Shown: piece after piece, positions 12,007 to 42,127 of the stretch
Layout: each line of letters starts with the position of its first letter
Position numbering within the stretch: position 1 is the stretch's first letter
Origin: Pseudomonadota bacterium
GTDB lineage: Bacteria; SZUA-182; DTGQ01
Direction of reading: 5' to 3'
DNA length: 45,999 nucleotides
NCBI GenBank assembly: GCA_030625085.1
Contig: DAOURK010000018.1
Span: 1 to 45,999 of the forward strand
Translations under genes and position numbers: made by a program
Notes under the pieces: model-generated
The model's database searches: none
The model's input: the letters and a program-made list of their open reading frames with translations, nothing else
Told to the model about the DNA's origin: nothing

Positions 12007-14639
12007 TTAGGAACTTGGCCTATAGTGATAACAAACGGGAGCAGTCCAGGCCATAGCCCCATCTTTCTGTTTAACCTGTACAAAATAATGATAATCATCC
12101 TTCCCGGATAATTCCATGTCCACAAAAGTGATATTTGCCTCTTTTCCTTTGATAATTTTTGAGCTATAGACACATTTAGCGTTGCGGATAATATCTACTT
12201 GTTCCAGTTCGTCAGTGCCGATGATTTTGCACAACATCCGGGGATGTGGATTGTCACCGGGAAATTTTTCACCCATAGGATGTCCCTCCACTGTAAAATC
12301 AAGAACAATCCAATCAGTGGCCACATAATTTCGTCTGTTCTCCAAGGCATCAATAAAAGATTCATCAGTGAAATCTTTTACGTAGGCCACGGTAATTACC
12401 GGCATCCCTTTGGGAATAGGTCTTTTCTGTAAAGAATGACCCAGGGCCCTTTTATAAGGGCTCCTTCCTCTGACATAAAAGGAGAGAAAATCTTTTTTGG
12501 TGGAATAAATCGAGGTTGCTTTTTTGGCCTCCCAGAGAGCATAATTTCCGGAATCAAACCACTTAGTGGACCGATAGGCATAATCAGACACTCCCAAAAA
12601 ATCATACTGCTGATCATCCAGGGCATACTTGAAGGCGTCCACTACAAAGCCGTCCATAGACATCCGACCGCGCAGATCATGTTGCTCGTGTAAAGTACCC
12701 CAAAATAGTTGATATTTTTCCAATCCCAGGGTTGATTCATAGCGTTTTTTAGGAAGCGGTGTAATTTGGGTATACGATACGGGAGTGATAACTTTAGGTT
12801 GATTTTCCCAGAGCACCAGATCCATATTTTTTGGAGAGATCTTTTCCTGATTGAGGGTCCCTACACAGATACTGGCGTGGTCAAGTTTTCGGGAACCGGT
12901 TCGGCGGTTGTCTCCTGCATAGGTAATCCAGATTTCACCATCTTGTTTGCCGACACACGATGAGGCTGCAAAAATATTTCGCCACGTGGTATGAGCAAAT
13001 TCAATGGGGGCCGACCAGATACGTCCATCATAATAAGCCCCATATACCTTCCAGATTTCCATAAGCTTATCATGGATATAAAAGGGTATTTTCCCGATAT
13101 AGTGATGAAAAAAAACCCAGAGACGACCGCTGGAATCAATTTGCAACTCAGGCAAATCAGCATACATTTTCATGGTAGCCGGCATATTGGCATAGAAGTC
13201 CCCGGAGGTCTTATAAAATTTTCCGCCATTATAGCAAACCAGGCCAAGTTTCCGAGAATTATATCTGCCCCGTCTACCTTCCATGGGCGTTTTATTGTAA
13301 TATATTTGAGTTTCAACCGCTTCAAATTTACTTATACCAATAGTTCGTTGCTCATCATTTTCACCGAATCCCCAGTATTCTCCTGATTCATCCCAGGCGA
13401 TCCAGACACGGCCCTGTTCATCTGCAGCCAGACTGGTATGGGCTACATAATTATCAGTGGAAACGACTTCAATTTCAGGTAAAAGGCCACTATTGATAAA
13501 TTTTCGAAGGAGGATAAGGTGCTTCCGGTTTCGGTAAGCGTCCCAGGCCACATATACCTTTCCCTGGTTATCAACTGTGATAGCAGGTTGCCAGTCATTT
13601 CCCTGATGGTCTGTAACTCGAATGACTTTCGACCATTGGCCCCGTTCATGATATTTCATAAAGATATCAGCATTGCCAAACTGGAAGCTTTGCCAGCATA
13701 CCCATAAACGGTTATTTCCATCTATATATGTCCGCTGATTAGTATCCGGCGCGGGGTGATCAGTAAGATATATGTCCGCTGATTAGTATCCGGCGCGGGG
13801 TGATCAGTAAGGCGGATAGTTTTAGACCACCGCCCCTTTTTAAAATACCGTGCATAGATATCCCAGTTCCCTTTAACGCGAGCGGGCCAACATGCCCATA
13901 TACCGCCCTGATAATCTCCTGTCAAAGAAGGCTGCAAATAATATCCTTTCCCCGAAATTTGTATGTCTTTCCCCCATGTAGTTCCATCATATTTTCGAAG
14001 TACCAGCCGCTCTTTCCCCTTTTTAAACCTTATCCAGGCAACCCAAATATTGTCCCTGTTATCCATGGTAATGGCTGAATAATTATCAGTACATTCTTTG
14101 GGGTCAAAAATAAAAGAGCGTGGGACCAATTGAATCTTGACATTTTTCCCTAATCGCTCCAATGGTTTTCCAAAGCTTAAATCCGCTAGAGAAAAAGAAA
14201 AGACACCGCCGGAACTGACAATGGAAACTTGGGCACTTCGCGGTGCATGGAGATCCAAAATAATTCCCTTGGCTACCCGCTCTTCTAAATATTCTCTGGG
14301 AGAAAGCCCTCTTAATTGATCTTTGATCCTACTGCCGCCCAGCCGATCGATAGAGCATTTCCACTGGTTTTTTAGGGGGAATAATTTATCTTTTTCAGTG
14401 AAGTTAACAGTTTGTATGGCTTCAATCTGTCCTTTATTCATTGAAGCTCTGCCGTCCCAAACCAAGGGTTTTGGCCCACGGATTCCAAACATAACCTGGA
14501 CTGTCCAAGGAAGACCCTTCTTCTCTTCTATTTGTAAATTTACCCCCTGGACTTTATAAGGGAGGAAAAACAAATATATGGAAAGTACAATGATTATCAG
14601 AGAAATAAATTGAATTCTGGCCAATAGGCTTTTAAACAT
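12007..14639 (-). pseudogene. secreted beta-propeller/PHP-like protein, split by 44-bp duplication
   Basis: One gene of about 860 codons, interrupted. The first part (14639 down to 13722) has an N-terminal membrane or signal segment (ISLIIIVLSIYLFFLPY) and propeller-like repeats (DNRDNIWVAWIRF, GGIWACWPARVKGNWDIYARYF). The second part (to 12007) continues the repeats (GKVYVAWDAYRNRKHLILLR, GRVWIAWDE). It then enters a region resembling PHP/DUF3604-type phosphoesterases (LFWGTLHEQHDLRG, FKYALDDQQYDFLGVSDYAY), with several expected metal-binding His replaced, so activity is doubtful. An exact 44-base tandem repeat at 13724-13811 shifts the frame and causes a stop. Removing one copy restores QRTYIDGNNRLWVCWQSFQF across the joint. 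The gene is convergent with the hybrid kinase, with 8 bases between their stops. Confidence 0.85.
13724..13811. repeat. exact 44-bp tandem duplication
   Basis: Copy one is 13724-13767 and copy two 13768-13811; the two are identical. Each begins ATATATGTCCGCTGATTAG and ends GGGTGATCAGTAAG. 44 is not a multiple of three, so the duplication breaks the surrounding gene. Perfect identity implies a very recent event or an assembly artefact. Confidence 0.97.
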
Positions 14640-16345: not shown

Positions 16346-18147
16346 TTAATCCAAGGGACCAGGAAAATTATATATCTTCATGAGCTTCCAAAGAGTAGTT
16401 CTACTTATATTAAGAATTTCAGCCGCTTTCTTTTTATTGCCCTTAGTCTTCTGAAGAGTTAAGGCAATTAATTCCTTAGATAAGTCGCGGCTGTTTTGGA
16501 GCCTTATTCTTATATTTACCTTTTTGGGTATTTCTTGTGCTTTTAATACCCTCTGAGGTAAATCAACCGGGGTAATAAAATTGCCCTTGACTTTTATAAA
16601 ACCATATTCCAAAACTCCTTCCAATTCCCGAATATTTCCAGGCCAGTGGTAATTGAGTAAAATTCCCATTGCATCAGGTGAGATATCTGTTATCTCTTTT
16701 TTAAAAATATTTCTGCATCTCTCCATCAAGTGATTCACCAAAAGAGACAGATCTTCTATTCTCTCCCTCAGAGGGGGCACAAAGATCGGGACCATGGCTA
16801 GACGATAATAAAGATCTTCTCTGAATCTTCCCTCCTCAACTTCTTTTTCCAAATTCTTATTCGTAGCGCCAGTACCCTGAGATTGACTTTGATTGTTTTT
16901 TCACCCCCTACGGGCTCGAATTCTCGCTCTTGTAATACTCTGAGCAACTTACCCTGAATCGTGGGGCTGATGTCCCCAATCTCATCCAAAAATATGGTCC
17001 CGCCGTGGGCCAATTCAAACCTCCCTCGTTTATCTCTTATGGCGCCGGTAAAGGCCCCCTTGACATGCCCAAAAAGCTCGCTTTCTAAAAGATTTTCTGA
17101 AAAAACCGAACAGGATACGGCTATAAAAGCACCTTTCTGTGGGCTGTTATAATGAATAGCCCTGGCAATGAGCTCTTTGCCGGTACCGCTCTCTCCTTGG
17201 ATTAGAACTGTGCATTGAGTTTGGGCCACACTGACTATGAGGTCAAAAATTTCTTGCATTTTTTCGCTTTTGCCAATAATGTTGTCAAATTTATATCTTG
17301 CTCGTAATTCCTTTAAATAAGTAAGTTTACATTCCTTAAGCTTTTCTTACAGCCTCCGGTTTTCGCTGATATCCCTAAATATTTGTAAAACAGAGCGGGT
17401 TTTATCCATATTCGGAAAGGGGAAGGAAGTAATCTCAAAAAGATTTCCACGTTGATCTTTTCGATAAAAAATGTGGAATGGCTCATTTTTATTCAATATT
17501 TGAAAATCAGGACATTTGTTTTCGGCACATTTCGATTCTCTTCCATGTAAAATCTTATAGCAGTCGTTACCAACTTCAGAGCCAAATATTTTTATCAGAT
17601 ATTTGTTCATAAATTGTATTTTATAATGAGGATCTATAATTAAAACCCCTTCTTGTATAGTATTTAAAATAGTATCCAGCATATATTGCTTATTTTCCAC
17701 CTCTTCTCTAAGCCTTTTCGTCTCAGAAACATCCTGAAAAAATACCCTGCTTTTATAAATCCTTCTTTTTCCATCATGCACGACATCAATATCAGTATTT
17801 ACCTCCACAATCTTCCCATCTTTTCTAATCAATTGATATCGTATGTTACGAAATTGATTTTCTTTTTTATTCGGATTATGGATAATTTTTTCAGCCAAAA
17901 TCTGAGTCTCTTTAGTGAAAAGAGGGAGCAAAGATTTTCCGATTAATTCCTCTCGTTTATAGCCCAATAAATAAGCAAAAGCAGTGTTACAATCAATAAC
18001 GCCCAATTGTTCATCTACAGAAAAATTAATATCAGGAATATATTCGCAAAGTTCTCCATAGAGTTTTTGAAGCTTATCATATCCCCTTTGGAGTTTTTCA
18101 AACGCCTTTTTTTGGGTTGCCAATTGTGATGTTAGTATGTCTTTCAT
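16346..18147 (-). pseudogene. PAS-PAS-AAA+-Fis sigma-54 activator, doubly interrupted
   Basis: A NtrC-family enhancer-binding protein of about 600 residues in three pieces. 18147-17350 encodes a coiled N-terminus and two PAS domains, the second with a cysteine cluster (GNDCYKILHGRESKCAENKC). An in-frame TAA at 17347-17349 follows ISENRRL; reading through it continues in the same frame as [20 protein letters not shown]. The AAA+ core then has Walker A GESGTGKE, the sigma-54 contact loop GAFTGA and Walker [13 protein letters not shown] one-base deletion near 16867-16869 breaks [19 protein letters not shown]. The last piece carries the AAA+ lid and a Fis-type helix-turn-helix (GNKKKAAEILNISRTTLWKL). 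It is divergent from the ole cluster and might once have regulated it, but I find no sigma-54 consensus before oleA. Confidence 0.88.
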
Positions 18148-28428: not shown

Positions 28429-31412
28429 TTAACTCAGCACCGTTTCTAGAGACAATTCCATAGGCAGGCGGACCGTGCCGCGATTTTTATTTTCATAAAG
28501 CAGATAGCCGTGCTCAAGGACATGATTGAAAAGGCGGGCAGTAAGTTCAACGTCCATCCGGCAATATTTCTCAATTTCTTCCATTTTGCCTTCTTTCCAC
28601 CAACGCAAGGCGGCCAGACCATCAGCGGTCTTGGGCACTCCTAAGGTGGCTAATCCCAAAGCGCCCAATCCAAGACGAAAACCAAGACGCTTATAAATCT
28701 CTTCCAGAATATCAAGACTGGACAAATCATCAAAGCCATGCCCGGTATAAGCCGTAAGAACTGTGTAGTCAAAGCGTTTCTGGTTAAAACCAACCACCAG
28801 TTCCGCCTCGGAAAGCCTCTGCACAAGGTCTGTTACCTTATCTTCAAAATATGTTTTATACATTCCTGTCCGGCGCTCGTAAATAACCCCCAGAGACATT
28901 CTCATTAAATGAGCATTATGCCAGCCGCCTACCTCCTGGGCTGATAGCTGCGTTTCAAGATCAAAAACAACAATATCGCGACCTTCAATCTGAGACAAAC
29001 GGCTTGTATAAGAAATGGACATTTCATTACCCTTTACATTACCCTTTAATCCTTCAGAAGCCTCCATCGCATCCCTTTCTCCAGGACCCTTTTGTAATAA
29101 TGATAAATCTTTCGAAAAATTTTGTACATCATGTGCCATAACACCCGTACCATCATACGACAACTCCTTCTTGCCTGTAAGGTGTTGGAGCAGGCGAATA
29201 CAGCCTTGCTTATCAAGAGGCACATTCCCATGACCGCATTTTGGCGAATGGATGCAGGAGGGGCAACCATCCTCACAGGAGCATCCTTCAACCAGAGCCA
29301 GCACCTTATCTAAAAGTTTATCGAGAACTTCATAAGCCCTGGCAGCCAAGCCGACTCCTCCGGGGTGACCATCATAAAGAAAAACAGCAGCGCCGCCCAC
29401 CTGGGGATGATGGGTAAAGCTGATTCCGCCAAGGTCATTGCGGTCGCAAAGGGCGAACAGGGGCAGCAGCGCCAGACCGGCATGTTCAATGGCATGAAGC
29501 GATCCCATGGAGTGATGCTTCCTATTCGCCAGCCCTCTCATGGCCGATGCCGTCGGTTGTATCCAAAGGCCCACTGTTTCGTACACAACCGGCGGCAAGT
29601 CTAAGGTATGATCACTTATTTTTTCACGACCTGCAGTGCTGCGCTTCTCAAAGCCCACCACCCGCTCGGTGACCTTAAGACGTCCCAGGCTAACCTGGTA
29701 ATACCCATTTTTACGGCCGGCCAAGACTTTAAGGATTTCTGTATTTTTGTCCGTACACGCTACAGTATAATAGGCGACTCCTGCCTTATGCACCCAGGCA
29801 TCCCGAGCGCCAAGGTCCAGATCTTTGACCACGTAGCTTTGCCCTCCGTGCAGGTATACGGCCCCGGGATGACATTCAGTAAGCGCCTGCAAACCATTGA
29901 CATGGCCGATCAGCCGTCGCTTGCCTTTCTCCACTATACTGTAAGTCTGCCCTGCGCTGCGAATGTTGACCTCCCGTTGGGGGTATTTACGACTGCTGAA
30001 CCATACTTTGCCGCCTGCCGCCTCAAGGAGGTCCCCGCTCTCAATAAGTGCTTTGATCACCAGATGGTACTTTTCTATTGGATAAACCTGATCATCATTC
30101 CTCAGAGGCATCTCTTGGGCGGCACAGACCAAATGGCTTTTTAAAAGATGAGGATTAGCCTCATCTACTACTCCCGCCTCCGCTCCCCGGCGGAAAAAAT
30201 CCTTGGGATAGTGCATATAATATTGATCAAGGGCATCGGGCTGGGCGATCAAAAAAATGGCCGACTCACGCTCTTTTCGTCCAACACGGCCGGCCCTCTG
30301 CCAGGTGGCGATAATTGTCCCCGGGTAACCCACCAGGATACACACATCCAGCCCTCCAATATCTATCCCCATTTCCAGAGCACTGGTAGAAATCACTCCC
30401 CTCAACTGGCCGGATTGCATTTTCTGTTCAATCTCCCGACGTTCGGCAGGCAGATATCCGGCCCGATAGGCGCTGATCTTATTCGCCAGGCGTGGATTGG
30501 ATTGCAAGGTCCAGCGATGAATAAGTTCGGTGATCTTGCGCGCCTTGGTGAAGACAATGGTTTTTTGTCGGCGGTAACAGCCTCGGTAAAAAGACGCGTG
30601 GCCACAGTATAGAGACTGGCTCTCGGGTTGATGAAAAAGATGTGGCGTGTGGCTGAGGGGGCACCATTTTGTTCCACCAGATCAAAGGGCAACCCGGTTA
30701 ATTGCGCTGCCAGATCACTGGGGTTGGCTATGGTGGCTGAGGTGGCCAGAAACTGTGGCTCGGCATGGTAAAAGGAAGCCACCCGTCGCAAACGCCGCAG
30801 GATCTGCAGTACATGGCTGCCAAAAATACCCTTGTAAGAGTGAAGCTCATCAATCACCACATACTGAAGATTTCGAAATAGCATCTCCCATTGGGTATGA
30901 AAAGGTAAAATGCCCTGATGGAGCATATCGGGGTTCGTCAACAGCAAATTAGGCGGGTTCTTACGAATCTTGGCGCGAAAATGTTGGGTAGTATCACCAT
31001 CATAGATAGCGGCTGCCGACTGAGAAAGCCCGAGGCGTGTCCCCATTTCCCAAAGCCGTTTGAGCTGATCCTGAGCCAGGGCCTTGAGGGGGAAAAGCAA
31101 TAATGCACGGGTGTTCGGCTCACTAAGAATGTGCTCGAGTATGGGCAGGGTGTAGACCAGGGTTTTACCGCTGGCCGTTGGAGTAACCGTGACCACATTG
31201 TGCCCCTCCCTGGCCAAGCGAACTCCTTCAGCCTGATGCAGATAAAGATTCTTTACCCCTTCAGCCGATAGCGCCCTTACAAGAGGTTCGGATAAAGGCG
31301 GATCAAGTTGATGAAGGCGAGCGCGATTGCCTACCAATACTCGACGATACACAATGTCCGGCGCTAAACGATGATCGCGTAAAATATCGGAGAGAAAATT
31401 CTTAAGGTCCAA
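28429..31412 (-). pseudogene. MrfA-MrfB-like helicase-exonuclease fusion, frameshifted
   Basis: A ~994-codon gene in two frames. The N-terminal superfamily-2 helicase has Walker A TPTASGKT (77-84), DELH (188-191) and SAT (225-227). It continues with ITELIHRW and ISTSALEMGIDIGGLD, then QRAGRVGRKE and a DUF1998-type domain with a metal-binding Cys cluster (CSCEDGCPSCIHSPKCGHGN). The last ~170 residues form an RNase H-like DEDD exonuclease (VFDLET, GFNQKRFDYTVL, YCRMDVELT). B. subtilis has these as separate MrfA and MrfB proteins in mitomycin C damage repair; here they are one chain. A run of six A near 30557 breaks the frame after TADKK; a seventh A restores KKTIVFTKARKITELI. The start overlaps the hicA stop by 11 bases. 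Confidence 0.88.
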
Positions 31413-33223: not shown

Positions 33224-36200
33224 TTAAGGTCCCGGAATATTGTCAACAGTATAATGTGTTCCGTTATAGTCATAATCAACACTCCATCGCCAACTACCCG
33301 TGGGCCTGATCAGCCGATTTAATAACACTTCAATGTCGGCATCCATAGCTCCGGAATCACAGGCCGTCCATTTTTCACCACCTGGGCCAATATCACCTAG
33401 ATCACTTACACCCTTCGATATTTGAAGGTTGGTTGGTGTTTCCATCAGCGTTATTCTCACATTTTCCGCAGTACCTGCCCCAAGGTTTTTGAACAAAACT
33501 TTAAGTCCCATTCTGTAAAGAGTCCTGCTCAGGGGCACCCTGAAGCAAGTTTGCTGCTCCTGTAACCAGATGTCCACTGCTGGTCCAGAAGAATTCACTG
33601 TTACTACCAAGGTGGCTATATCACTGGCGCCATCATTGTCGGTTACCTGTACTGCTACTGTGTATGTGCCGGCTGTCCCCCAGGCATGGGTCTGATTTGC
33701 TCCCGTATCTCCTGAGGCATCGAAGGTGCCGTCATAGTTCCAATCCCATTCATAACTTACTATTGAATCTGGTGGCGCCACAAATGATCCGCTCGCATCG
33801 TAACTGCCGGTATCACCCTCGTTCAAGGGCGTATCTCCCGTCAACACTGCTGTCGGACCTGCGTGATCATGCACTGTTACTACCAAGGTGGCCATATCAG
33901 TACTGCCGTCATCGTCGGTTACCTGAACGGCTACTGTATATGAACCGTCATCATTCCAGGTGTGATTTTGAGTTGCCCCGGTATCTCCTGAGGCATTGAA
34001 GGTGCTGCCGTTATAATCCCAATCCCATTCATAAAGTACAATGGCATCACAAGGACTAATGGAGCCAGCGGCATTGTAGTTGCCCGAAGCTCCCTCATCA
34101 ATAAGTGTATCTCCGGTCAAGGACGCTGTCAGGCTAAGATCATTGACAGTCACCGTCAGTGTGGCTATATCCGTACTACCGTCATCGTCGGTTACCCGCA
34201 CAGCTACTGTGTATACACCGTCATCCATCCAGGTGTGACTTGCGGTTACTCCGGTATCTGAGGCATTGAAAGTAGTGCCGTCATATTCCCAATCCCACTC
34301 AAAACTCACAATGCAATCACAAGCTCTGCTGGAGCCGGATGCATCATAGTTGCCCGCAGAGCACTCATCTATAGCCATGTCTCCATTCAGGTTTGCTGCT
34401 GGCCCTAAATCGTTCACTGTTACCACTAAGGTGGCCATATCAGTGCTTCCATCATCGTCAGTTACGCGCACTGCTACTGTGTATACACCGTCATCCATCC
34501 ACCTATGGCTTTGGATTGCCCCCGTATCTCCTGAGGCATTGAAGGCACTGCCGTCATAATCCCAATCCCACTCATAAAGTACAATAGCATCACAAGGGCT
34601 GGTAGATCCGTCGGCATCGTAGTTGCCAAATGAGCACTCATCAATAGTGGTGTCTCCCGTCAAATCAGCCGTGGGGCCCTTATCCGTGATAGTTACATCA
34701 TGGGAAATTGTGTCGGTAGACCCGTCATCATCAGTAACCAGCAAGGTCACTGTATAGATACCATTATCATTGAAGGTGAAACCGGGATTCTGATCACTGC
34801 TTGTTCCAAGACCCCCAAAATCCCATGACCAACCAGCGATAATATCTGGTGAAGAAGCGGAAGTATCCGTGAAATTGACGGCCGAGCACTCATCCTGTGG
34901 CTCAGGATGCCAGGTAAAAGAGGCCGTAGGTGCCAAATCATTGACCGTTACCGCGGCTGTGTCCGTATCATCCAATAATGAATCAGATACTCTCAGTCCG
35001 ACTGTATAAACGCCGTCATCTAACCACGTCCAGGTTGGCATTTCAGCGGTTGAATCGTCATAGTCCCCATCATCATCCAGATCCCAGAAAAAATAAAGGG
35101 TATCACCATTAGCATCGGAAGACCCGCTCCCATCCAGGATGAGGAGAGTACCCTCATTCACAACATAGGGTCCGCCGGCGTCAGCCACAGGCGGCAGGTT
35201 TATATTAACCGTTACTGTGGTGTAAACAGGTGTCGAATTCATTGAGATGCAGTCCACTCCAAGGGTGCAGCCGAGAGGATTGAAGGCCCCGTTATCCCAT
35301 ACCTTAAGGCCTATATTATAAACACCAGGCGCTGTGAAAATCCACGTTGCAGTGGTATTGGTGGTTTCAAGATCAACATCATCGAACCAGACCCCATCAT
35401 TGTCCAGGTCCCATTGATAGAGCGAAACGCTGTCACCGAGGTCAACATCATAGGAACCGCTCGCATCCAGAGTAAAGGGTATCCCGACGGTTGCCGTGTA
35501 TGCGCCTCCGTGCATGGCAAAAGGTGCATGAGGCGGTTCAGTGACGGTCACCTCTCTGGTGTCAATATCAGTTTGAGGCGGTTCATTGTCATCAGTGACC
35601 CTGAGTCTTACGGTATAAATTTGAGGAGGATCACCAGCTACCAGGGGCTGGGGATCAGGATAGGTATATTTGGCGTTTGAATCTGAAGGATCAGAAGTAG
35701 TAAAATCCCAGATGCCGTCGCCGTTAAAATCCCATTCGTATCTGACAAGGCTCCGTGAAGGATCCATGTGAAAAGATCCGGAAGCATCAAAGCGTAGTTC
35801 CAAGTCATAGGCCCAAATGATGTCATCTCCGGCATCCGCCACCGGCGGTTGGACAAAGAGGCTGGGGGTCAGCATGATAATTGCCCAGCTTGTATTCAAC
35901 CCGCGTCCGCCGTAACCACCGCTGAGCCATGAACCCCAATATCCTCCGGAGGTAGTTTGCAAATCTAGAATTCTCTTGTTGATACCCGTTATCGGGTCAC
36001 TGTACCAGTCTAAACCAGTGGCCTGTAGGATGACAACAGGAGTGGGCCTGGCCAATCTCATGGCCTTGACCCAGGCATACAGGCCGTAGAAGTTATTATA
36101 TTGCCAAGAATGGCCGTTAGTCTGCCAGTAATTGGCATTGTAATCCTCGGCAGTGATCCACCGTGGATCGGAGGTGTATTTATCGCAGAAGGCAAGCTGA

Positions 36201-39200
36201 ACCATACCCGACGGGGTGGTGGCCACTCCGTTGCCAGGGCCAGTATAGCCGAAGCCGGTGCCGTTATAACTATAATTCAGCCAATAATCATTTTGCTCTT
36301 TAACAAAATCCGGCACATTAATACCAAAGTTGTCTTCTGCTGCCAGCATACCTATGGCAGCCCACTGACAGGCAGAGTTATCTGCATCACTATTCCAATT
36401 ATAACGCCAACCACCTCGGTCACTACCCAAATCATCTTGCCCCCAGGCATACATATCCACCATGTCGGTCAGAATATGGTAGTAAAATCTTCCATTAATA
36501 TTGGTACCTCCGGTGGTGGCAAAGGCTAAAGGCATATTAGAGGAGGCAATGGCGTCCATGACCATACCTCCCTCATATATTTCACGACTGCCGTTGGTCT
36601 CTATCCCAATGCCATTTCCATTACTATCAGGATTCCCATATGTTTGGGCGCTGATATTGTAAGATTGCAAACACTTGAACAAATATTCAAAACCTCGATT
36701 CACCGTCTCTACATATGGGTTCTCCTGATTGTCGCCGTCTTGGAGATGGCCGTTAATCTCAAAAGATTGAATGGCTGAAGCCGTTGGTGAGGCATAATAG
36801 CTGCTGTATGACGACCACTTGCCGTAATCACTGCCGCTCCTGTCCTGGTTTTTATGCTGATACCAGAGGCCCTCGTCAATAGCAATATTCGTCCTTGTAT
36901 CAAGATTATTGGGACGGACAATCACATAGTAGTTATCAGTGCCAACAAGACCACTGCTGTCCCATACAGTCAGGGTGGCCGTATAAGGTGTGCCGTCAGT
37001 AGAATCAGGATAGGTATGGCCGGCCTCAATTGCATACTTGTTGCTCACCGTTGCCGGTGTGGCCGGGGAGACTGCTGATCCATCGCCAAAATTCCACTGG
37101 TAGGTAAGAGTACCCGCATCCCTGACTATGGCTTTCAGTCTAATACTGCGGCCATTGTATGTTTCATGAGGGATGGTTGGATCTCCAGATCTCCAGGGCA
37201 CGCAGATTACATCAGGGGCCAGGTTGGTGGCCACATTCACGGTAGAAGTTGCAACGGCCGTCTGTCCTGCTCCGTCCTCTACAGTAAGGGTAACCGTATA
37301 GGTGCCCGCAGTGGGATAGGTATAAAAAGGCTTTCGACCCACTACATCCATATCGTTAGTAAAATCTCCGTCACCGTCGCTGTCTACAGAATTGTCTACA
37401 TCCCACAAATATTTCACAATGCCGTAGTCGTCTGTTGAGCTGCTGCCGTTAAGGTAAGCCGGAGGTCCTCCGGCGCCGGCATTGTAAGGCCCACCCGCAT
37501 CAGCTACCGGCGGATCACCTGCAGCAATAACATGAACTACCATGGTATCGCTGTCGGACTGCAAGGTTTGATCATATACAGTAAGTGTAACCGTGTAATC
37601 TCCAGTATTCCAATAAATGTGGGTCGGGGTTTTACCTGTGTCGGTTGTCCCGTCACCAAAATCCCATTCATATTTATAGACACCAACATCATCAGTGGAG
37701 TTTCCACCGTTAAAGACAACCGGCCAATACCCCTCGGTGATTTGATCCGGTCCTGCCTCGGCGACTGGAGGATCACCGTTGGTCAAGGTAACCGTAGCAG
37801 TATCAATGGTTGACTGCAAGGCATGGTCAGTCACTCTAAGGGCTACTGTATAAATTCCAGCCCCTGTATAGATATGAGTGGCAGTGTCCGCTGTATCTCC
37901 TGAAGGATCAAAGGTCCCGTCATAATCAAAATCCCACTCATAGGTATAGATGCCGTAATCGTCGGTTGAACCCGTGCCGTCAAAATCAATGATCCAAGTG
38001 TTTTCAAAGGCGTCGCTTTCATCGCCGGATTTGTCCGGCCCGGCATCGGCAACCGGAGGATCATTGGCCTGAGTAGTTACGCTCGAAAAATCCGTGTCTG
38101 CCTGTGCTACCTGATCATAAACCGTGAGGCTGATGGTGTGGCTGCCAAGGCAGTAAAAACGGTAAGAGGGGGTGGGGCCTGCAGCGAATTCCCGGTAATC
38201 ATCTATTGTAAATGTTCCATACCGGATGGTTGTCCCTCTTAAAAAAGCTGTTTCGCTGCTGTAGCTGGAATCATACAAAAAAATCCAGTCCGGTGAGCCG
38301 AGTGTGCGGTAATAGTATCTTGCTCCTTGAGTTTCTTTAAGCTCAATCAGGACTTCATACCAGGTGTTGAAAGAATAATTATAACCGGTGTCGCCCCGGT
38401 TAGCCCCATTTTCATAAATATAGATATTTCCATGATTGAAATAAATGGCATAGGGCATCTGAGTGTAAGAGTAATTGGTATTGGTGTTTTTAAACCCGAC
38501 CATGGCATAATGGCTGCTGTGCTTGACCTTGGCCTCAAAGGCCATACCATTGGCCCTGGTATATGTATCTTTGCTGAAGAGGTAACGCTGACCCCAAGAA
38601 TTATTGCCCACAATGGAGATCTCATCATTCTGGGTCACATTGGAATTATAAACCCACTTGACGTTATTGATAACCGTTCCGTTAAATTCATCAGTGCCCA
38701 GATCCCAAACATATTTGCTGATACTCGATTCATTATCAGAAGATCCGGAACCATCCAGGGCAACTGTCCAGCCCCCTTCAAAGGCGTTCCCGGTGTTTTC
38801 ATCTACCGTATAGGGCCCGTCTGCATCAGCCGTGGGAGGATCACCCTGGGTAATGGTGACGGTCATGGTGTCAATATGGCTTTGAAGGGCATGGTCCGTG
38901 ACCCGGGTGGCCACCGTATAAATCCCCGGCGCCGTCCAGGTGTAAGCAACCGTTGAGCCAGTGTCATCAAAGACCCCGTCATCATCAAAATCCCACTCGT
39001 AGGTATATATTCCATAATCATCGGTGGATCCCGAGGCGTCAAAATTCACCGTCCAGGAACCGTCGGCTGCATCAGTTTCATTCTTGGTCTGATCAGGTCC
39101 AGCATCAGCAACCGGGGGATCACCGTCGGTAATAACCACCGTGGTGCTATCCGTATCACTTTGACCGGCCCGGTCGTAAACGGTCAGATCAAGGCCAAAG

Positions 39201-41989
39201 GTCCCTGTCCCTTTATACAGGGTAAAGTCAGGGCTCTGCCCTGCCGTAGTTTCCAGAAAGTCATCCATACTCCAGGTGCCGCTATGAACGACCATTCCCT
39301 TTCTGAGGTTCGTATCCCCGGTTGTATAACCGGAATTATAAACCTCATGCCAGTCGCTTGTTCCGGAGAGCCGGTAAGAATATACCGCACCCGTTTCTTT
39401 GAGTTCGATTTTAAAATCGTACCAGGTGTTATACGAATAATTGTATCTTGTATCACCCCGGTAACTGCTGTTTTCATAAATGTATATATTTCCATTGGCG
39501 AGATAAAATTCATAAGGAAACTGATTATAGTGGAAATTGGTAGTATTTTCATTCTTAAATCCGAACATGCTCTGCCCACTCCCAGTAGTCATGATCTTGG
39601 CCTGGAAGACCTGCCCTTTCACCTTGGGAAAAGTGGCCTTGCTGACCATATAGCGGGTATTCCAGGTATTCGCTCCGGTAAGGGAGACCGCGTCACTTTG
39701 GGTAATTCCGCCGTTGGTGTGCCATTTTTCGCTTTGAAAGGATGTGCCGTCAAAGGTATCCTGCCCAAAATCCCAGACATATTTTCTGATCTCCACATCA
39801 TCGGAAGATCCTGAGCCGTCCAGGCTGAATGTCCACCCGCCTTCGCTGGCTGCTGACTCATCCGCGCTGTATGGGCCGTCGGCATCAGCCGTCGGAGGGC
39901 CTCCGGCCTGCATAGTCATGGGGATAATGCCGGTATCGGCCTGCTCGGCTGCATCAGCCACAGTCAAATCTACATTAAATGTTCCGCCTTCAAAGGCATG
40001 TTGTACAGTCTGGCCCGTCGCTGTGGCGGTAACCGTCAGGTTATCAAAAAGGGCATCGGTCCTGTAAGTGGAAAAGCCCACCTTGCCGGAGCTGAAAGTG
40101 CTGTCGGAGTGTGTAAAAAGCAAAATCCCGTCCAGGTAAAACTCTATTTGGCTACCAATGCAAACAATTTTGATTCTATAGGTATTGCCGGTGTCGATGG
40201 GATAAGAGGGGAAATCTGAAGGCAGGTCATACTCAAAGACATTGGTAGCGCCCTCGTTCACCCGCCGGTACAAAAGAACATCATTATTTCCTCTTCCCCT
40301 CAGGATATACTCGTAGTTGTTATAATGATTTTTGGCCCGAAATATAATCTGGACCTCCTCACCGGAACCTGACACCATATAGACATCCGCCTCGATGGTT
40401 ACATCCGTATCGAAAACCTTATTGACCAGGGTCCAGGTCCGATCCGGACCGGCATCTGTCTGGCGATAAGAATGAAGGCCGGTTATGGGGGCTGCACTCT
40501 CTATCCCCCAGGTGCCGGCAAAGCCATCCCAGCCCACCGTATCTGCATCCTCAAAATTATCGGTGCAACCGTCATCAAGGTCCCATTGGTAAGAGACAAT
40601 GCCTTCAGTATCAGAGGCATAATTGACGCCGTCAAGGAGTAAATTCCAAAACCCGTCATCAGCCAGAAGCTCGCCAAAGGTCACCGGCGTGGTATCCACG
40701 GCCGGCGTATCACCCTCGACAATGACCACAGCGGCCTCATAATCATTTTTATTATCATCATCCGTCACCTTGAGATTGGGGAGATACGTTCCTTCATCCG
40801 CATAATCATGGTCGGTGGTTCCCACATCCGTTCCAGTGCCGGATTCGGTTGACGTACCGTCGCCAAAATTCCACACCCACGAAGCCAGGACGCCGTCCCA
40901 ATCAAAAGAGCCTGAGCCGTCAAAATCAGCCGTGCCGCCCTCGGCAATGGTTTGTGTGGCAGGAGAAATAACCGCTGTGGGCACTCCGTCCGGCGGCCCC
41001 AGGGGCGGGGCCGACAACCCCATGCAATTGTATGAAGTTGTTCCTATCTCGACAGCAGACCCGAACGTACCATCACCATTACCCGGATAGTAGTAAACTC
41101 TTTTACCGGTATAATTTGCGGCCACCACATCAATATTTCCATCTCCATCAAAATCAAAACCGTCATAACAGCCGTGATTGTTAAAGTCCAGGCTGCCGAC
41201 ATAGCCGACATAAGTAAAGGTGCGGTCGCCATTGCCGGTCCAGAGCTTGGGATCGCCATTGCTGCCATAATTGGCTATGATATCCATATTGCCGTCATTG
41301 GTAAAATCAGCGGCCACCACGCCGTACGGATCAGTCCCTGAATCTCCTACTTGAAGATTACTGGGGAAGGCGCCTGTACCATCTCCCCAGTAAACATTAA
41401 TATATCCACTGCTATATCTTGCCCGAACAAAATCGAGATGACCGTCATGGTCAAAATCTCCAGTATCCATACCGCGACCGTAACTGCCAAGATTCATCTC
41501 GGTTTTCGTGAAATTCCCCATGCCATCTCCAAGATACAAGCCCGTAGTGCTTTGATTGCCATTGGCAATAAAATCCATGTTACCATCGTTGTTGAAATCC
41601 CCGGAAGCCATATCCATGGCCCAAGAACTGGCGTTGCTCAGTGTTCCGACAATACCGCTCTTGGTGAAATTGTTGCTTCCGTCATTCAAAAAAAGATAAT
41701 AATAAGCCGTACTTGATATGCCGCGGCCGGCAATAAAATCCATATGGCCGTCGTTATTGAAATCGTTAATGGTCACCCCGCGGGAGTTATAACCGCCCAG
41801 ATAATCCAGAAAACCGTAATTACTGAAGGTACCGTCGCCGTTGCTCTCAGCATAGTATAAGCGTGAGTAATCATCCACGGCGATGATAAAATCAGCCGCC
41901 CGGGCCAAATTTAAGCCCGCTCCAAAGGTCAAAAACACAATCAATGCGATTGAAACAAAATGCAGATACCTTTTGGCGTGTTTCGTCAT
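33224..41989 (-). CDS. giant secreted multidomain PKD-repeat protein
   Basis: About 2,920 residues from ATG 41989, chosen because AAAGGAG lies 7 bases upstream and a signal peptide follows (FVSIALIVFLTFGAGLNLARA-AD); an ATG at 42049 would add 20 residues. Order by position: FG-GAP/VCBS propeller repeats (about 41900-41000; DFNNDGHMDFIAG, DFDHDGHLDFV), a PKD domain, a concanavalin-like domain (about 40560-40020), then PKD domains alternating with two related lectin-like modules (about 39780-39190 and 38730-38180). More PKDs are followed by an alpha/alpha toroid resembling prenyltransferase/squalene-cyclase repeats (about 36900-35890), then about ten further PKDs and a 100-residue beta-rich tail. 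Aspartate-rich loops suggest calcium binding. No sortase or PEP-CTERM anchor is seen. Likely an extracellular adhesin or matrix protein; the function is not established. Confidence 0.9.
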   Translation of the reverse strand: MTKHAKRYLHFVSIALIVFLTFGAGLNLARAADFIIAVDDYSRLYYAESNGDGTFSNYGFLDYLGGYNSRGVTINDFNNDGHMDFIAGRGISSTAYYYLFLNDGSNNFTKSGIVGTLSNASSWAMDMASGDFNNDGNMDFIANGNQSTTGLYLGDGMGNFTKTEMNLGSYGRGMDTGDFDHDGHLDFVRARYSSGYINVYWGDGTGAFPSNLQVGDSGTDPYGVVAADFTNDGNMDIIANYGSNGDPKLWTGNGDRTFTYVGYVGSLDFNNHGCYDGFDFDGDGNIDVVAANYTGKRVYYYPGNGDGTFGSAVEIGTTSYNCMGLSAPPLGPPDGVPTAVISPATQTIAEGGTADFDGSGSFDWDGVLASWVWNFGDGTSTESGTGTDVGTTDHDYADEGTYLPNLKVTDDDNKNDYEAAVVIVEGDTPAVDTTPVTFGELLADDGFWNLLLDGVNYASDTEGIVSYQWDLDDGCTDNFEDADTVGWDGFAGTWGIESAAPITGLHSYRQTDAGPDRTWTLVNKVFDTDVTIEADVYMVSGSGEEVQIIFRAKNHYNNYEYILRGRGNNDVLLYRRVNEGATNVFEYDLPSDFPSYPIDTGNTYRIKIVCIGSQIEFYLDGILLFTHSDSTFSSGKVGFSTYRTDALFDNLTVTATATGQTVQHAFEGGTFNVDLTVADAAEQADTGIIPMTMQAGGPPTADADGPYSADESAASEGGWTFSLDGSGSSDDVEIRKYVWDFGQDTFDGTSFQSEKWHTNGGITQSDAVSLTGANTWNTRYMVSKATFPKVKGQVFQAKIMTTGSGQSMFGFKNENTTNFHYNQFPYEFYLANGNIYIYENSSYRGDTRYNYSYNTWYDFKIELKETGAVYSYRLSGTSDWHEVYNSGYTTGDTNLRKGMVVHSGTWSMDDFLETTAGQSPDFTLYKGTGTFGLDLTVYDRAGQSDTDSTTVVITDGDPPVADAGPDQTKNETDAADGSWTVNFDASGSTDDYGIYTYEWDFDDDGVFDDTGSTVAYTWTAPGIYTVATRVTDHALQSHIDTMTVTITQGDPPTADADGPYTVDENTGNAFEGGWTVALDGSGSSDNESSISKYVWDLGTDEFNGTVINNVKWVYNSNVTQNDEISIVGNNSWGQRYLFSKDTYTRANGMAFEAKVKHSSHYAMVGFKNTNTNYSYTQMPYAIYFNHGNIYIYENGANRGDTGYNYSFNTWYEVLIELKETQGARYYYRTLGSPDWIFLYDSSYSSETAFLRGTTIRYGTFTIDDYREFAAGPTPSYRFYCLGSHTISLTVYDQVAQADTDFSSVTTQANDPPVADAGPDKSGDESDAFENTWIIDFDGTGSTDDYGIYTYEWDFDYDGTFDPSGDTADTATHIYTGAGIYTVALRVTDHALQSTIDTATVTLTNGDPPVAEAGPDQITEGYWPVVFNGGNSTDDVGVYKYEWDFGDGTTDTGKTPTHIYWNTGDYTVTLTVYDQTLQSDSDTMVVHVIAAGDPPVADAGGPYNAGAGGPPAYLNGSSSTDDYGIVKYLWDVDNSVDSDGDGDFTNDMDVVGRKPFYTYPTAGTYTVTLTVEDGAGQTAVATSTVNVATNLAPDVICVPWRSGDPTIPHETYNGRSIRLKAIVRDAGTLTYQWNFGDGSAVSPATPATVSNKYAIEAGHTYPDSTDGTPYTATLTVWDSSGLVGTDNYYVIVRPNNLDTRTNIAIDEGLWYQHKNQDRSGSDYGKWSSYSSYYASPTASAIQSFEINGHLQDGDNQENPYVETVNRGFEYLFKCLQSYNISAQTYGNPDSNGNGIGIETNGSREIYEGGMVMDAIASSNMPLAFATTGGTNINGRFYYHILTDMVDMYAWGQDDLGSDRGGWRYNWNSDADNSACQWAAIGMLAAEDNFGINVPDFVKEQNDYWLNYSYNGTGFGYTGPGNGVATTPSGMVQLAFCDKYTSDPRWITAEDYNANYWQTNGHSWQYNNFYGLYAWVKAMRLARPTPVVILQATGLDWYSDPITGINKRILDLQTTSGGYWGSWLSGGYGGRGLNTSWAIIMLTPSLFVQPPVADAGDDIIWAYDLELRFDASGSFHMDPSRSLVRYEWDFNGDGIWDFTTSDPSDSNAKYTYPDPQPLVAGDPPQIYTVRLRVTDDNEPPQTDIDTREVTVTEPPHAPFAMHGGAYTATVGIPFTLDASGSYDVDLGDSVSLYQWDLDNDGVWFDDVDLETTNTTATWIFTAPGVYNIGLKVWDNGAFNPLGCTLGVDCISMNSTPVYTTVTVNINLPPVADAGGPYVVNEGTLLILDGSGSSDANGDTLYFFWDLDDDGDYDDSTAEMPTWTWLDDGVYTVGLRVSDSLLDDTDTAAVTVNDLAPTASFTWHPEPQDECSAVNFTDTSASSPDIIAGWSWDFGGLGTSSDQNPGFTFNDNGIYTVTLLVTDDDGSTDTISHDVTITDKGPTADLTGDTTIDECSFGNYDADGSTSPCDAIVLYEWDWDYDGSAFNASGDTGAIQSHRWMDDGVYTVAVRVTDDDGSTDMATLVVTVNDLGPAANLNGDMAIDECSAGNYDASGSSRACDCIVSFEWDWEYDGTTFNASDTGVTASHTWMDDGVYTVAVRVTDDDGSTDIATLTVTVNDLSLTASLTGDTLIDEGASGNYNAAGSISPCDAIVLYEWDWDYNGSTFNASGDTGATQNHTWNDDGSYTVAVQVTDDDGSTDMATLVVTVHDHAGPTAVLTGDTPLNEGDTGSYDASGSFVAPPDSIVSYEWDWNYDGTFDASGDTGANQTHAWGTAGTYTVAVQVTDNDGASDIATLVVTVNSSGPAVDIWLQEQQTCFRVPLSRTLYRMGLKVLFKNLGAGTAENVRITLMETPTNLQISKGVSDLGDIGPGGEKWTACDSGAMDADIEVLLNRLIRPTGSWRWSVDYDYNGTHYTVDNIPGP
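33595..34700. repeat. tandem near-identical PKD-coding units
   Basis: Four units of roughly 270 bases encode PKD domains sharing CDAIVLYEWDWDYDGS-type and DGVYTVAVRVTDDDGSTD-type text. They are far more alike than the other PKD domains in the protein, which points to recent unequal recombination within the gene. Confidence 0.8.
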
Positions 41990-42127
41990 TTCTTGTCTCC
42001 TTTCTCTTCCTTCATCCCCTGTGAGTGTTATTTTTTGTATTGAAACCATAGTTGCTTATTTCTTCTTCTGTTTATTATCCTTAATCTTTTTAAAGGTCCT
42101 TTTTTTTAGGCTGATATAGCAAGCCGA

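Follow-up and report, generated by a model that had tools for sequence, protein, structure and literature searches.

Organization of the interrupted gene

The window analyzed here, the whole 45,999-nucleotide stretch of contig DAOURK010000018.1 from a Pseudomonadota bacterium, contains a minus-strand gene (12007-14639) that is interrupted by a tandem duplication. At positions 13724-13811, both TRF and direct comparison identified two head-to-tail units of 44 bp that were 100% identical (2.00 copies). In plus-strand order, copy 1 occupies 13724-13767 and copy 2 occupies 13768-13811, and the extra unit is indistinguishable from the original. The repeat is exactly 88 bp long and is flanked on neither side by part of a third unit, and direct comparison revealed no microhomology at the unit ends, the repeat reaching 0 bp past the two units. 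With up to three mismatches allowed, the unit occurred twice in the window, compared with zero occurrences expected from 100 shuffles, and the 20-mer at the junction occurred once in the 4.94-Mb genome. The strand at the array site folded no better than shuffled sequences (z 0.41), which argues against hairpin-driven mispairing as the origin of the duplication. Rfam and tRNA searches of the window yielded no matches.

Since 44 is not a multiple of three, the gene is read as two open reading frames (ORFs) of 305 and 550 amino acids in different frames, which overlap within the array. The upstream ORF (13722-14639, minus strand) is the 5' part of the gene and traverses the whole array to a stop at its far edge; residues 1-291 match the intact homologues, and the last ~14 residues are out-of-frame readthrough of the second unit. 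The downstream ORF (12007-13659, minus strand), the 3' part, is 550 amino acids long when counted from its first in-frame ATG, which sits inside a propeller repeat and by inspection has no visible Shine-Dalgarno sequence. One of the three frames of the unit carries stops; therefore, arrays of two or more units are always closed and only the one-unit form is open. An earlier note, made from the DNA letters alone, had proposed that an exact 44-bp tandem duplication splits one gene, which is confirmed by TRF, direct comparison, and the ORF frames. Its estimate of ~860 codons for the restored gene agrees with coordinate arithmetic, which gives 2589 nt after removal of one unit (14639-12007+1-44), or 862 codons plus a stop, and with the lengths of 860-875 amino acids in relatives.

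Predicted protein

The upstream ORF encodes an N-terminal hydrophobic stretch, by inspection a putative signal or anchor, followed by the first propeller-like repeats, and the protein is thus probably secreted or anchored. According to profile matches, the downstream ORF encodes the remaining propeller-like repeats and a C-terminal CehA/McbA (PHP)-like part. The Pfam model Reg_prop (PF07494, cut-off 20.4 bits) scored 22.8 bits in the downstream ORF, 29.8 bits in the paralogue on contig C106 of the same genome, and 28.7 bits in the homologue of genome G004, but remained below the cut-off in genome G003 (18.4 bits) and in the upstream ORF (13.3 bits). CehA/McbA proteins are of the PHP type. The NCBIfam model for CehA/McbA metallohydrolases (NF038032) matched three of four proteins with 35.2, 26.4, and 23.2 bits, all below its cut-off of 80; the highest of these scores (E 8.6e-9) came from the downstream half of the window gene. 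The C-terminal part of the window protein therefore resembles part of this model, but differs from the family in its score, in the ~120 residues matched, and in being fused to a propeller-like N-terminal part. Of the label "propeller/PHP-like" given in the earlier note, the propeller half holds, whereas the PHP-like half is a weak match. A PDB profile search returned no matches up to an E-value of 1, and the fold predicted for the downstream half had a mean pLDDT of 31, which is too low for a fold search.

Homologues and the ancestral state

Of 97 genomes searched, 16 had a match, and five (G000 to G004) were analyzed, the other matches being partial or weak. G000 is the window's own genome and has two further paralogues of the broken gene, on contigs C106 and C74. 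Homologues were also found in G001, G002, and G003, which belong to the same family as the window's genome, and in G004, which belongs to the same order. The unit was single in all five homologues that could be aligned as DNA over the site (C106, C74, G001, G003, and contig C168 of G002). G004 was too distant for DNA alignment, and its protein alignment showed no extra segment, so that all six site-spanning homologues have one unit. A second G002 homologue, on contig C583, starts beyond the site and was left out of this count. The gene is single and uninterrupted in C106 (869 amino acids), G001 (867), G003 (875), and G004 (860). Because every spanning homologue has one unit and four of the six are uninterrupted, the sequences indicate that the one-unit state is ancestral and that the two-unit state, known from this contig only, is derived.

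The third paralogue, on C74 (L085:188-2193), has a deletion relative to C106 that offsets the coordinates by 592 nt and leaves the sequence past the gap in a different frame. In the phylogenetic tree of the downstream half, C106 and C74 grouped together with support of 98/97, and the window copy had no firm place. A gene encoding a NapC/NirT-cytochrome c7 protein comes directly after the intact copies in C106, G001, and G003, whereas the next gene after the window copy is a convergent PAS/HAMP sensor kinase. These differing neighbors suggest that C106 represents the conserved position and that the window copy is a dispersed paralogue. The intact gene followed by the cytochrome gene was observed in three genomes (L086:3985-7686, L006:526-4399, and L024:4467-8659); the two genes, the first of which has no specific Pfam name, possibly form a functional pair.

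Age of the duplication

Compared with C106, the downstream half of the window gene had a dN of 0.164 and a dS of 1.872, and the upstream half had a dN of 0.236 and a dS of 1.709, with dS near saturation in both. The corresponding dN/dS values for the intact pair G001 and G003, where dS was also near saturation, were 0.080/1.135 and 0.160/1.075. The values of the window halves are like those of the intact pair, and relaxed selection was thus not seen in either half. Furthermore, both halves were free of additional stops up to the array. The identical sequence of the two units, together with the lack of relaxed selection, supports the view that the duplication, if real, is very recent. The recency proposed in the earlier note is thereby supported, and the comparison with close relatives that it had suggested found the two-unit state in none of the six site-spanning homologues.

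Other interrupted genes in the genome

Three other genes in the window are also broken, all on the minus strand. A gene encoding a PDC-HAMP sensor histidine kinase (378-2620) consists of overlapping ORFs in different frames (378-1298 and 1232-2620), and the split, near 1257, coincides with a short run of A. No close homologue of this kinase was found in the seven relatives searched, and the break was therefore judged from domain order alone. A gene encoding a PAS-AAA-HTH_8 sigma-54 activator (16346-18147) is broken into three pieces by an in-frame stop (near 17350) and a change of frame (near 16866). A gene encoding an MrfA/HRQ1-like helicase (28429-31412) is split between the DEAD and Helicase_C domains near 30460. 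This break, too, coincides with a short run of A, and the helicase gene is whole in G003 (1021 amino acids) and G002 (988 amino acids). It should be noted that the window also contains an ORF of 2941 amino acids (33224-42049, minus strand) in which PKD domains and FG-GAP repeats are numerous, and that an imperfect DNA repeat of ~270 bp lies within this region at 33593-34663.

A homology scan of 1.18 Mb of G000, using ORFs of the relatives and of G000 itself, pointed to four credible places with split genes, after two weak rows with 31-33% identity (L104 and L055) were dropped. Two of the places are in the window (the propeller gene and the sigma-54 activator gene) and two are on contigs C34 and C42; the scan missed the kinase and helicase breaks. 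Each of the split genes outside the window (L058:17712-19479 on C34 and L066:6832-8185 on C42) has an unbroken paralogue next to it on its own contig. The reverse scan found no split genes in 39 target places of G003 and 44 of G001. A first ortholog count in part of G000 gave no split genes, either among 19 with queries from G003 or among 30 with queries from G001, but it took the best place per query and required 75% cover, and the window's copies were therefore missed. The cluster of broken genes would be explained by local decay of dispensable genes or by a poor stretch of sequence, and not by a switch.

Assembly artefact or real mutation

The duplication could be an artefact of assembly or sequencing, in which case the real molecule would have one unit and an intact gene. 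We consider this unlikely. The relatives and paralogues carry one unit, both halves of the window gene look conserved, and the unit ends have zero microhomology, all of which speaks for an artefact. Three other window genes are frame-broken, so that locally unreliable sequence is conceivable, and single-base frameshifts account for several of these lesions, including two that lie at runs of A. The contig belongs to a draft assembly of 247 contigs, and assembly graphs pass contigs of smaller k forward, which makes a one-off error possible. In the consulted part of the GeneTack study, the authors expect BLAST-confirmed singleton breaks to be mostly sequencing errors (PMC3711429).

The structure of the assembly argues against this explanation. 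Among 128 contig ends, the terminal stretches common to two ends were 138-141 bp long in 23 of 25 pairs and 31 bp long in the other two, and the dovetails between contig ends were 108, 111, and 141 bp, with none of 44 bp. These lengths fit a graph-based assembly whose final k was 141. The default k of MEGAHIT ends at 141. This assembler uses iterative k, as described in the part of a study drawn on here (PMC7299287). The 88-bp array and its flanks fit within a single k-mer of this size, and 44 bp is not an overlap length of the assembly. Moreover, no second exact tandem duplication with a period of 20-400 and without a partial extra copy was found in 1,178,160 bases of G000 (81 stretches), and N runs were absent from the G000 stretches except in one contig. 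As 44 is not an overlap length and the scan revealed no second duplication, a systematic join artefact is unlikely. The end lengths rule out a contig join with an overlap of 44 as the likely origin, and the scan of these 1.18 Mb gave no sign of a genome-wide excess of 44-bp duplications. The assembly error that the earlier note had offered as an option is thus improbable as a contig join and possible as a one-off error.

Among the relatives, G003 had one exact tandem repeat with a period of at least 20 and no partial extra copy in 375,809 bases (20 bp), and G001 had two such repeats in 279,091 bases (20 and 21 bp). Short simple duplications are therefore not unusual in the family, and the 44-bp duplication is the longest seen. 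Taken together, we infer that the two-unit array is real in the cell.

Phase variation and other explanations

A real array could act as a phase switch, in which some cells of the population would reversibly switch the protein off and on by gaining and losing the 44-bp unit. Direct repeats of two units are able to shed one of them, the frame is open when one unit is present, as in the homologues, and inspection suggests a signal or anchor at the N terminus of the protein. As at a phase-variable contingency locus, a repeat tract lies near the frame break and the unit length within the coding region is not a multiple of three. The unit is also similar in size to the direct repeats of 54-56 bp in Mycobacterium tuberculosis promoters, for which the part of the study used here gives copy-number variants at 10^-2-10^-3 per chromosome (PMC12817950). 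Similarly, the available part of a fission yeast study describes microhomology-mediated tandem duplications in ssp1 of Schizosaccharomyces pombe, which, like the array, are short two-copy coding duplications that truncate the protein, and which are reversible (PMC13207564).

However, the array is missing from all six site-spanning homologues, and a tract that is conserved or recurrent in homologues was thus not found (0/6). The array consists of only two units, their number was not seen to vary, and every unit number above one is closed, since stops lie in one of the unit frames. In contrast to the yeast duplications, the array spans exactly 2.00 units and lacks microhomology at its flanks, and its reversion is putative. 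The adjacent genes are broken by other kinds of lesion, and the site has no special fold (z 0.41). In addition, the consulted GeneTack text required clusters of at least five members with repeats near the break to call phase variation (PMC3711429). We therefore regard a switch as very improbable, and the suggestion of one in the earlier note is not borne out. A live switch, in which the sampled population contains both one-unit (ON) and two-unit (OFF) cells and a duplication made without microhomology reversibly silences a dispersed paralogue encoding a secreted propeller-metallohydrolase protein, has a slimmer chance still, and the switch is kept above zero because copy-variable promoter repeats of similar size exist in M. 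tuberculosis, as far as that source describes them (PMC12817950).

It is highly improbable that the two ORFs are separately made genes produced by gene fission. Both halves are open and conserved, but translation of the downstream ORF would have to begin within one of the propeller repeats, from an ATG for which inspection revealed no Shine-Dalgarno sequence; no relative with a full-span gene is split at the array site, and the identical units imply an event too young for adaptation. Recoding by programmed frameshifting or transcript slippage is scarcely credible: the two frames do overlap inside the array, but inspection of the 44-bp unit found no slippery heptamer or long homopolymer, the frame break is not conserved, and a bridged product would have ~14 extra residues that are found in no homologue.

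A probable null allele of a redundant paralogue

The explanation that we consider probable is a genuine and very recent 44-bp tandem duplication that arose once in the sampled lineage or strain and frameshifted a redundant, dispersed propeller/CehA-McbA-like paralogue, making it a fresh pseudogene or null allele. As in a recent frameshift pseudogene, the gene is interrupted where four homologues (860-875 amino acids) are not, and the lesion is absent from the relatives. Its redundancy is indicated by the intact C106 paralogue in the same genome, where the third copy, on C74, is itself broken by a deletion. Misalignment during replication or repair without flanking microhomology probably yielded the duplication; textbook slippage is a less natural route because such microhomology is absent. 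A truncated N-terminal fragment of ~305 amino acids would then be translated, the C-terminal two thirds would not be part of the product, and the window copy would presumably have lost its function. Like any direct repeat of two units, the array could on rare occasions lose one of them, which would restore the frame, and nothing points to unit loss at a raised rate, whether selected or regulated.

The case resembles the singletons of GeneTack, which the consulted part of that work describes as one interrupted gene in one genome, with intact homologues found by BLAST and a break that is not conserved (PMC3711429). Such a non-conserved, BLAST-confirmed singleton represents an indel or an error in that scheme. 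It differs from them in that the indel is an exact 44-bp tandem duplication and not a one-base change.

The 44-bp array thus appears to be an ordinary gene-breaking mutation and one example of the ways in which redundant genes become broken. It also serves as a caution that a clean repeat of two units can be mistaken for a switch when it lies in a gene with a broken frame. If both states were found together in the reads, the locus would provide a simple natural case for estimating the rates at which microhomology-free duplications are gained and revert.
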